The translations under genes were made by a program, and so were the position numbers. The notes under the pieces were generated by a model. That model made no database searches. It saw only the letters and a program-made list of their open reading frames with translations, and was not told where the DNA came from. 64,000 nt of DNA, taken from assembly GCF_003173775.1 (NCBI RefSeq), contig NZ_CP029552.1:3644001-3708000 (forward strand), read 5' to 3'. Of this stretch, positions 12,745 through 15,111 are shown one piece after another. Source of the DNA: Methylobacterium sp. 17Sr1-1. Lineage in GTDB: Bacteria > Pseudomonadota > Alphaproteobacteria > Rhizobiales > Beijerinckiaceae. Position 1 is the first letter of the stretch, and the number at the start of each line of letters is the position of its first letter.

Positions 12745-13022
12745 AGCGCTCCGCAACCGGCCGACCTCCCGAAAATCCGGCAATGCGACGGCGCCGGCCC
12801 TGCGGCGGCGCGCAGCGCGACCGGACCACGTGTACCAGAAAATTCCGGCCCGATACCTGCGGGATCGGCGCGGGGACGCGAGTCCGAGTCGTCAGGACCG
12901 GCGCTCAGGATCCGGCGCCCGGTTCCCTTGGCCTGTATCCGCGCCGCGAGTTCCGGGAGGCCTGCCGGGGCAGCCGCGGAGGTTCCGCCGCGAGGCACAG
13001 CAGGGCACGGTCCGGTCGGGCG

Positions 13023-13895
13023 CTAAGGGAACCCCACCCCCCGTGGCGTCGGCGGCGCCTCGTTGAGCAGCGTCACCGTCACCCGGCGGTTGGCCGGCAG
13101 GTAGGGGTTGTCGGGAAACAGCGGCTCGGTGTCGGCCTTGCCGGAGACGGCGGCGAAGCGGTCGGCGGACAGGCCGCTGCCGGCCAGGATCTCGCGCACG
13201 CTGACCGCGCGGCCGGCGGAGAGCTCCCAGGGCGGCGCGGCGGCGCGGCGGCCGGGGCGGTCGGCGGCGGTGTAGCCGGTCACCGCGATGCGGTTGGGCA
13301 GGCGGCGCAAGGTGGGGACGATCCGCTCCAGCACCTGGCGCGTGCGGTCGTTCGGCCGGGTCGAGCCCTCCGGGAACATCGAGCGGTTGTCCTGGTCGAC
13401 GAGGGAGATGTCGAGGCCCCGCGCCGTCACCTCGATCACGATGCTCTTCGACAGCTCGGCGATCTCCGGCAGGTCCTGCAGGGCCTGGCGCAGGGACGTC
13501 ACGGCGAGGCCGAACCCGTCCTTGTAGGAATTGCGCTGGGTCCCGTCGGGCAGCACCTCGTCGGGGCTGGGCGGCTCGGGCCGGTCGGTCGCCTTCTCGG
13601 GCGCGACGTCGCGGGTGTCGCGCGGCCGGGTCGCGCCCGGCAGGCCGGCCTTCTCGATGATGCCGTTGAAGCGCGACTCGCGGTTGTTGCCGAAGGCGTC
13701 GCGCATCGAGCCGGCCACCGCCTGGAGCTTCTTCTGATCCTGCGTCGAGTAGGCCGCGATCATGACGAAGAAGCTCATCAACAGCGCCATCAGGTCCGCG
13801 AAGGTCACGAACCAGCCGTGGCCGCCATGGGCCCCGCGCTTCTTTCTAGCCACCGCCCAGGTCTCCTCGAAGCGCTCGCGCCGGAGTTCGCTCAC
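13023..13895 (-). CDS. motB: Flagellar motor stator protein MotB
   Basis: A 290-residue stator subunit. Residues about 26-49 form the single membrane helix (WFVTFADLMALLMSFFVMIA) with the proton-binding Asp at D34. A linker follows, then an OmpA/MotB peptidoglycan-binding domain (about 145-285), seen in NRIAVTGYTAADRP and ANRRVTVTLL, that anchors the stator to the cell wall. It works with MotA to drive flagellar rotation. The GTG start overlaps the stop of the last mini-ORF of the tandem array as GTGA, with GAGG 4 nt before it. Length is normal for alphaproteobacterial MotB. Confidence 0.9.
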   Translation of the reverse strand: MSELRRERFEETWAVARKKRGAHGGHGWFVTFADLMALLMSFFVMIAAYSTQDQKKLQAVAGSMRDAFGNNRESRFNGIIEKAGLPGATRPRDTRDVAPEKATDRPEPPSPDEVLPDGTQRNSYKDGFGLAVTSLRQALQDLPEIAELSKSIVIEVTARGLDISLVDQDNRSMFPEGSTRPNDRTRQVLERIVPTLRRLPNRIAVTGYTAADRPGRRAAAPPWELSAGRAVSVREILAGSGLSADRFAAVSGKADTEPLFPDNPYLPANRRVTVTLLNEAPPTPRGVGFP

Positions 13896-14067
13896 GCCGC
13901 CTCGGCGGCCATTTCCTCACGGTGCATCAGGCCGCCTCAGCGGCCAGTTCTTCACGGTGCATCAGGCCGCCTCAGCGGCCAGTTCTTCACGGTGCATCAG
14001 GCCGCCTCGGCGGCCAGTTCTTCACGGTGCATCAGGCCGCCTCAGCGGCCAGTTCTTCACGGTGCAT
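13892..14067 (-). other. Chain of five overlapping 11-codon mini-ORFs between motA and motB
   Basis: Because each motA-end copy contains TGATG, every stop overlaps a new ATG by one base. Reading minus-strand: 14067-14032, 14032-13997, 13997-13962 and 13962-13927 each encode MHREELAAEAA and stop; 13927-13892 encodes MHREEMAAEAA and its TGA overlaps motB's GTG as GTGA. A GAGG stands 7 nt before each ATG. The layout would let a ribosome pass from motA to motB by successive termination and re-initiation. Whether the mini-ORFs are translated is unknown. Confidence 0.7.
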
Positions 14068-14095
14068 CAGGCCGCCTCGGCGGCCAGTTCTTCAC
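13892..14095 (-). repeat. 35-bp tandem array at the motA-motB junction
   Basis: Five full 35-bp units lie head to tail at 13921-13955, 13956-13990, 13991-14025, 14026-14060 and 14061-14095, followed by a diverged sixth partial unit at 13892-13920. Full units are identical except for one synonymous base (GCT or GCC). Read on the minus strand a unit is the 3' end of motA, including CACC, GTGAAGAACTGGCC, GAGG and the stop TGA. The array therefore arose by repeated duplication of the motA end, stop codon included. Confidence 0.95.
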
Positions 14096-14840
14096 GGTGG
14101 TTGTGCGGCAGGTAGGCGATCAGCATCTCGCGCACCAGCGAGGCGCTCTTGGCGTCGCGGATCAGCAGCACCCCGTCGATGATGAGCGTGCGCGAGACGT
14201 CCTCCTCCTCGAGCTTGACGTGCAGCTTGTCGGCGATCGGCAGGGTGATCATGTTGGCGATCAGCGCGCCGTAGAGGGTCGCCAGCAGCGCGGTCGCCAT
14301 GGCGGGGCCGAGCTTCGAGGGGTCGGACATGTTGGCGAACATCGTCACCATGCCGAGAATCGTGCCGATCATGCCCCAGGCCGGGGCGCAGTCGCCGAAG
14401 GCGCGGTACACCTTCGAGCCCTCGTCGAGGTGCATCAGGAAGTTGTCGCGGTCGCGCTCCATCGTGTCGCGGATGAACTCGCGGTCGTAGCCGTCGGCGA
14501 TGTAGCGCACGCCCTGCGCCAGGAACGGGTCCGAGATCTCGAGGTTCTCGATCGCCATCGGGCCCTGGCGCTTCACCACGTCGGCGATCTTGGTGATCTC
14601 GTCGATCAGCTCGCGCGGCCGGATCGCCCGCATGTTGAAGGCGTAGCGCAGGCCCATCGGCACGCCGTGGACGATGACCGAGAACGGGAAGCGCAGCATG
14701 GTGGCGGCGGTGGCGCCGCCGAAAATCACGATGACCGCGTGCTTGTCGAAATAGGCGGCGAAGTTGCCGCCGTCGATCATGATGAGCACGAACACGACCG
14801 CGATGCCGCCGACGAGGCCGGCGCCGGTTGCGATATCCAT
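14067..14840 (-). CDS. motA: Flagellar motor stator protein MotA
   Basis: A 257-residue inner-membrane stator subunit with four membrane helices: two near the N-terminus (LVGGIAVVFVLIMID and AVIVIFGGATAATML) and two after the cytosolic loop (AWGMIGTILGMVTMFANM and ALLATLYGALIANMITLPIADKL), where the Pro-containing gating residues lie. The cytosolic loop carries the charged residues that contact the rotor (RPRELIDEITKIADVVKRQG). It forms the ion channel with MotB. The C-terminus (HREELAAEAA) and stop codon are the parent of the 35-bp tandem array, so motA now ends 171 bp before motB instead of overlapping it. Confidence 0.9.
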   Translation of the reverse strand: MDIATGAGLVGGIAVVFVLIMIDGGNFAAYFDKHAVIVIFGGATAATMLRFPFSVIVHGVPMGLRYAFNMRAIRPRELIDEITKIADVVKRQGPMAIENLEISDPFLAQGVRYIADGYDREFIRDTMERDRDNFLMHLDEGSKVYRAFGDCAPAWGMIGTILGMVTMFANMSDPSKLGPAMATALLATLYGALIANMITLPIADKLHVKLEEEDVSRTLIIDGVLLIRDAKSASLVREMLIAYLPHNHREELAAEAA

Positions 14841-15111
14841 CTGAGCTCGGCCCCTTCATGCGCCGTCGCGCGGCCCCGGTCGCGGCACCGGACGGTCGCG
14901 TGTGTCCTGGCCCGGAGGTTACGGCGAACAGGGTCAACGAACGGTAAAAATGCCGCTGCCCCGGGCCCTCGCCGTCATGCGCCGTTCAGCGAGGATCTGT
15001 CATAGAGACGACCATGCGATCGAACGGCCGCCAAACAGGCCGCGCGCGGGGCAGGCGGCGGGCAAGCGTCCGGGCCGCGTCACAAGGGCATCTCATCAGG
15101 GTTCACCGTCG

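Follow-up and report, generated by a model that had tools for sequence, protein, structure and literature searches.

Tandem copies of the motA stop region in the motA-motB spacer of a Methylobacterium clade

Mini-ORFs carried by MIRU repeats overlap the adjoining genes at stop and start codons. The closest published parallel that we found for the locus described here is the MIRU array between the mycobacterial genes senX3 and regX3, which consists of three 77-bp units, or of two 77-bp units and one 53-bp unit, in two strains (PMC4213456). There, as here, short tandem units of variable copy number lie between two genes of the same operon; unlike MIRU, which is dispersed over the genome, the present unit was found at one place and duplicates the end of the gene just upstream of it. 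A second point of reference is the termination-reinitiation pair. TGATG overlaps support reinitiation generally, and E. coli motAB is listed as a coupled pair (PMC6728339). Our search of the literature on motA/motB and on stop-spanning repeats, with most subscription papers outside its coverage, found no title describing such an array.

The window, that is, the whole stretch analysed, comprises 64,000 nt of Methylobacterium sp. 17Sr1-1 (NZ_CP029552.1, positions 3,644,001 to 3,708,000; genome G000 below). The relevant features are the following.

14840-14067, minus strand: motA-type stator gene (PF01618, E 2.4e-26), C-terminus ...HREELAAEAA and stop
13892-14099, minus strand: tandem array, period 35 bp, 5.9 copies, a stop in each unit (TRF: 95% match, score 374)
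14067-14032, minus strand: mini-ORF 1, MHREELAAEAA and stop, its ATG overlapping motA's TGA (translation)
14032-13997, minus strand: mini-ORF 2, MHREELAAEAA and stop (translation)
13997-13962, minus strand: mini-ORF 3, MHREELAAEAA and stop (translation)
13962-13927, minus strand: mini-ORF 4, MHREELAAEAA and stop (translation)
13927-13892, minus strand: mini-ORF 5, MHREEMAAEAA and stop, in the diverged unit, the stop lying within GTGA (13895-13892) (translation)
13023..13853, minus strand: motB, read from the conserved GTG 13853, 276 aa, VARKKRG..., with MotB_plug and OmpA (Pfam)
13868-13862, minus strand: SD-like GAGGAGA preceding the conserved motB start (sequence, junction comparison)
13854..13895, minus strand: 14-codon in-frame extension above motB, including the GTGA start, opened by a change of TGA to TGG

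NCBIfam MotA/PomA models match the motA-type gene and MotB models the motB-type gene, both below their cut-offs, so that the names motA and motB depend on Pfam together with adjacency.

The array is 208 bp long. Its first unit is motA's own last 30 nt with the stop, and each unit contains motA's last ten codons, the stop and two further bases. With a TRF score of 374, the array ranks first in the window (runner-up 81) and first among the 128 rows that TRF gave for 464 kb of G000 (runner-up 257), and no second place carrying the unit was found in the 6.54-Mb single contig. Several statements of an earlier sequence-only reading were borne out by TRF and translation, namely five 35-bp copies of the motA end (motA's own counted) with a diverged sixth, a chain of four MHREELAAEAA mini-ORFs and one MHREEMAAEAA, and full copies that differ at a single synonymous base, GCC/GCT (Ala). 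The spacing it gave, GAGG and 7 nt before TGATG, is corrected here to 5 nt before TGATG, which makes 7 nt to the ATG. Every mini-ORF start has one base in common with the preceding stop: as the period of 35 falls one short of 36 and a TG comes after every stop, the A of each TGA doubles as the A of the next ATG. Short near-identical repeats are prone to mis-assembly, and the array might have been collapsed or inflated in this way; we regard this as extremely improbable, given that the copies are not all identical, that the array is just 208 bp in a one-contig genome, and that related duplications occur in independent assemblies of relatives.

Such a chain invites the reading that ribosomes restart at each TGATG, run through the five mini-ORFs and enter motB at the GTGA of 13895, in which case MotB would carry 14 additional residues and the copy number would set the MotA:MotB ratio. 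In the window the five same-phase steps are indeed unbroken, the five mini-ORF ATGs are predicted by RNA folding to be unpaired at 0.91-0.94 and GAGG to be about half unpaired, and the TGA to TGG change opens the motB frame up to 13895. As in TGATG/ATGA pairs, the TGA of the unit overlaps an ATG with GAGG 7 nt upstream. Whether the chain has been kept is a matter for the relatives.

For that comparison, whole-genome searches supplied 31 loci, counting that of the window's own genome, and named genomes, chiefly of Methylobacterium and Methylorubrum, a further 80. The junction parser succeeded on 95 of the 112 entries (the window and L001-L111; L001 excluded by design), of which 73 are distinct, the same junction being present twice in some cases. 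Sixteen entries matched none of its patterns (L084-L086, L088-L090, L092, L097, L098, L101, L102, L105, L106 and L109-L111); these are mostly Bosea and other non-Methylobacterium, with L085, L098 and L102 from Methylobacterium. Of 111 genus genomes, 110 gave a MotA match, in many cases to weak paralogues only, and loci were taken from the best 30, so that coverage of the genus at this junction is incomplete.

The clade harbouring the duplication, which we take to be that around M. aquaticum, is represented by 15 genomes. Twelve have one to five extra motA-end copies in the spacer, and the other three have none, their motA-motB spacers measuring 39, 40 and 42 nt. The 22 aligned copies comprise five in the window, four in G004 (the M. 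aquaticum DSM 16371 locus, its fourth copy weak), two each in G105, G031 and G024, and one each in seven others. The claim that the motA 3' end was tandemly duplicated together with its stop is supported. The claim that copy number can vary without touching either protein is supported between species (0-5 extra copies in the 15 genomes). In the manner of a VNTR, judged between species, the locus shows head-to-tail copies (35 bp x5.9 at 95%) and a copy number that differs at the same place among clade genomes, the variation being seen between species only, with one genome per species.

The phase of the units fares differently from their number. TGATG stands directly after motA in four of the 15 clade genomes (the window, G105, G031 and G005), and the rest have TGACG, TGACC or TGAGG; the stop is intact in 13 of the 22 copies and lost in nine; and copies in G071, G005, G024 and G109 contain 1-nt indels. 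ATG and stop have decayed in most relatives. Frame-breaking changes in relatives had been named beforehand as evidence against a relay, and conservation of the GAGG-N7-TGATG phase as evidence to look for; the indels and lost stops are changes of the former kind, and the four of 15 speak against the latter. In a motA+motB tree, the window joins G016, G071 and G005 (support 100/99), within a clade whose other branches are weak (nine of 15 inner branches open), and each of these nearest relatives has one decayed copy in which the stop has become CGA. Three TGATG at 35-bp spacing were found in one of 111 genus genomes, namely the source genome. The comparison indicates a duplication that much of the clade shares and a long intact chain that arose recently and belongs to the source species alone.

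The start of motB tells a similar story. The nearest MotB start codon leads into [AT][KR][KR]KR (residues 2-6) in every one of the 73 distinct junctions, and the window's counterpart of this common start is GTG 13853; an SD-like 4-mer lies at -16..-3 of the motB start in 52 of the 73. Of the 15 clade genomes, the window alone has this frame open up to GTG 13895. Thirteen of the 14 relatives close it with a TGA two codons upstream of the motB start, and in the fourteenth (G106) a stop lies 14 codons above with no start codon between; it is only through TGG in place of TGA that the window's motB frame extends to GTG 13895. Outside the clade, a second in-frame motB start was seen in L054 and L099, two of the 73 distinct junctions. 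The SD region of GTG 13895 is predicted to be less accessible than that of GTG 13853 (0.28 vs 0.58). Consequently, of the statement that the last stop overlaps motB's GTG as GTGA, the overlap itself stands and the assignment of that GTG as motB's start probably does not; GTG 13895 is unlikely to be the true start, and GTG 13853 is the start that MotB would use in the source species. The proposed ancestry, in which motA and motB overlapped by GTGA before duplication pushed them apart, is not supported either: copy-free clade members have spacers of some 40 nt, and motB starts separately behind an SD-like site of its own, a picture of a spacer and not of an ancestral GTGA overlap.

The positions of these sites bear directly on the relay. 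GTG 13853 lies 213 nt from the motA stop and 38 nt past both the array and the last mini-ORF stop, so that ribosomes following the chain would still have 38 nt to go to the conserved start, which, with its SD-like site, lies outside the chain. In tested gene pairs, a spacing of about 20 nt nearly abolished coupling, and +38 nt abolished it (almost) completely in E. coli (PMC10666635). The idea that copy number tunes MotB output relative to MotA finds no support. In coupled pairs, no more than about 10 nt separate the two genes' stop and start, which would be so here only if GTG 13895 were used, and such pairs keep their overlap in relatives, whereas here no clade relative has motB overlapping and TGATG after motA is as scattered as described. 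Finally, if each of the six hand-overs worked at an assumed 50%, 1.6% of ribosomes would, by arithmetic, get through. We consider the relay very unlikely, and motB probably does not need it.

Taken together, the earlier reading is partly supported by the comparison, in its duplication and variable copy number, and not in its GTGA ancestry and kept relay. The explanation that we think probable is a recent, species-specific expansion of a motA 3'-end duplication by slippage or unequal recombination, with motB started independently. Slippage or unequal recombination would duplicate a short stretch containing motA's stop, and the copies in the spacer would then expand, shrink or decay across the clade. 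MotA would be unaltered because the first stop still terminates it, and MotB because its translation would begin outside the array, at GTG 13853 behind a conserved SD that belongs to motB. At most, the array would lengthen the spacer and add GC-rich hairpins, and the mini-ORF chain would be a by-product of the 35-bp period and the TG after the stop, not a kept device. Slippage and near-neutrality are what the comparison of relatives suggests. The junction carries a more general lesson, namely that duplication alone can yield a perfect chain of overlapping mini-ORFs, and that a translation device should be deduced only once the downstream gene's start has been checked in relatives.

Several observations run against this independent-start explanation. 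In the source species, no stop interrupts the frame between the GTGA and GTG 13853, as befits the end of a relay, and the five ATGs are predicted to be accessible. Five same-phase steps are unbroken, though decay would hardly be expected of near-identical and seemingly young copies. Furthermore, the excess of stop-spanning arrays described below is absent from two of the genomes sampled.

Each unit also holds a palindrome, as listed here.

14070..14085, minus strand: perfect stem GGCCGC-CGAG-GCGGCC in motA's own end (sequence)
14035-14050, 14000-14015, 13965-13980 and 13930-13945, minus strand: recurrences of the perfect stem (sequence)
13895-13910, minus strand: the stem without its outer pair, in the sixth unit (sequence)

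The perfect 6-bp stem GGCCGC-YGAG-GCGGCC is thus present in five of the six units, and the single variable base of the full copies is a loop position. It might be the stems that matter: acting on the mRNA, for example through slower decay of its motA part or through a block to reinitiation, they could raise MotA over MotB, the mini-ORFs being incidental. Differential decay guided by RNA structure is known (PMC5927463), and structures just past stop codons (RTS) are reported to control reinitiation (PMC7518266); like these, the present stem lies 19-34 nt past motA's stop, where its role is putative. A perfect stem is found 19 nt past the motA stop in ten of the 12 copy-bearing clade genomes, even with altered loop or flanks, and the stem arms vary at 10 of 264 sites against 66 of 462 for the rest of the copies (P 3.7e-6). 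The long motA-motB spacers of L073 and L094 also fold strongly (z -4.67 and -3.59). Conservation of the hairpin as RNA, strong at first, weakened on closer comparison, and we rejected it as a finding and retained it as a rival: on G/C sites only, the arms vary at 10 of 263 and the rest at 19 of 250 (P 0.08, with copies that are not independent), and with one copy per genome P is 0.10. Unlike RTS, the single-copy clade spacers fold ordinarily (z -1.9 to +0.73), and the window's z of -4.56 is expected of a repeated palindrome. Three clade members are copy-free, and Rfam gave no match at gathering score in 13000-15100. An effect of the hairpins on stator output thus appears unlikely to us. A consensus scan of 13700-15000, which left genus-specific promoters outside its scope, returned no promoters and no terminators. 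The GC-rich palindrome in each unit resembles REP/REPIN-type repeats (PMC3116915); unlike those elements, which occupy many genomic places, the motA unit is not dispersed and was found at one.

L073 and L094, together with L099 (z -2.56), are long motA-motB spacers of other lineages, with strong hairpins of unrelated sequence.

More interesting than the motA-motB junction itself are recurrent arrays anchored on stop codons. Forty 20-kb stretches of the same genome outside the window (800 kb, 17,500 N) were sampled for arrays of period at least 15, with at least 2.5 copies, 85% match and score 80, and the stop codons tested were those of a GC3-filtered ORF list (464 in the 800 kb of G000), which is not an annotation and makes the stop-spanning rates approximate. 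Six of 14 arrays contain the stop of a GC3-supported ORF, about ten times the random mean of 0.56, and none of 1000 trials reached six. When the count is restricted to intervals that are not wholly coding, 10.4% hold a stop at random, against six of ten arrays (P 1.8e-4). With the window included, seven of 15 arrays span a stop (random mean 0.69, 0 of 2000 trials). In G011, three of 11 arrays do so (mean 0.46, reached in 12 of 1000 trials); G071, with one of four (reached in 290 of 1000 trials), and the outgroup G049, with none of two, show no excess. Besides the cases treated below, the first unit holds the stop of a GC3-supported ORF in these arrays.

L129:3497-3629, L181:9282-9348, L134:4662-4722 and L122:9493-9540: further stop-containing arrays in G000
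L220:3429-3554, L228:9815-9863 and L220:13484-13533: further stop-containing arrays in G011

We considered whether relays are kept by phase at such places and rejected the idea. The stop-spanning periods are 35 (motA), 33, 33, 28, 17, 16 and 15 in G000, 32 in G071, and 21, 19 and 17 in G011, and an ATG after the motA stop is absent in most clade relatives; with no common reading phase among the periods, the relay phase at motA looks incidental.

Two stop-spanning junctions differ in unit length or copy number between related species. At the stop region of prmA (PF06325), G000 has 33 bp x3.3 (L181:7847-7955) and G071 has 32 bp x3.7 (L212:9339-9456), and the flanking sequence identifies both as the same gene end with differing unit length. 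The second is an overlap of two genes.

L124:11328-11419 = G000:C1:2991328-2991419, minus strand: TauE/Alph_Pro_TM array (relatives L140-L156)

Here, the end of a TauE gene and the start of an Alph_Pro_TM gene share a TGATG (Pfam; TIGR02186 matches under its cut-off). The overlap is repeated in frame with an SD-like GGAGG three times in G000 (period 33), four times in G036 and six times in G071 (period 36); it occurs twice in G016 and G106 (36) and in G002 (33) and singly in G004, G104 and G010, and G001 has TGAATG. By their reading frame, these repeats give a ladder of predicted alternative starts before a signal-peptide-like N-terminus. If such events occur genome-wide, gene ends in this clade would be mutational hot spots, which leave the upstream protein intact and alter the next gene's spacing, RNA structure and starts.

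One may go further and suppose that a drifting stop-region repeat was taken into use in the source species, the five TGATG steps and the lost TGA making an unbroken chain, a MotB longer by 14 residues and a stator output set by repeat number. More broadly, the clade would habitually multiply its gene ends; a period of 2 mod 3 would then produce a relay, as with the 35 bp of motA, and a period of 0 mod 3 an in-frame start ladder, as with the 33 or 36 bp between TauE and Alph_Pro_TM. We offer this as a long shot.

That hairpin units cause the long-period arrays is left as an idea. The five arrays of period at least 26 in 864 kb of G000 have perfect stems of 5-7 bp (shuffle P 0.06, 0.116, 0.122, 0.252 and 0.008; combined 0.003), and against it the lone G011 array of period 28 has a stem of just 2 bp. 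A separate array at L115:2627-2758 has a 26-bp unit (x5.1, 99%) with a 6-bp perfect stem and lies seemingly between divergent genes.

Two other observations concern repeats of different kinds. At the TauE to Alph_Pro_TM junction, L149 (G005) and L154 (G105) contain insertions of several hundred bases at most, rich in long inverted repeats, which are similar in both and are possibly a dispersed element. At L210:18410-18826 in G071, a 170-bp unit is present in 2.5 copies at 98%, and the unit's start looks like a putative tRNA gene.
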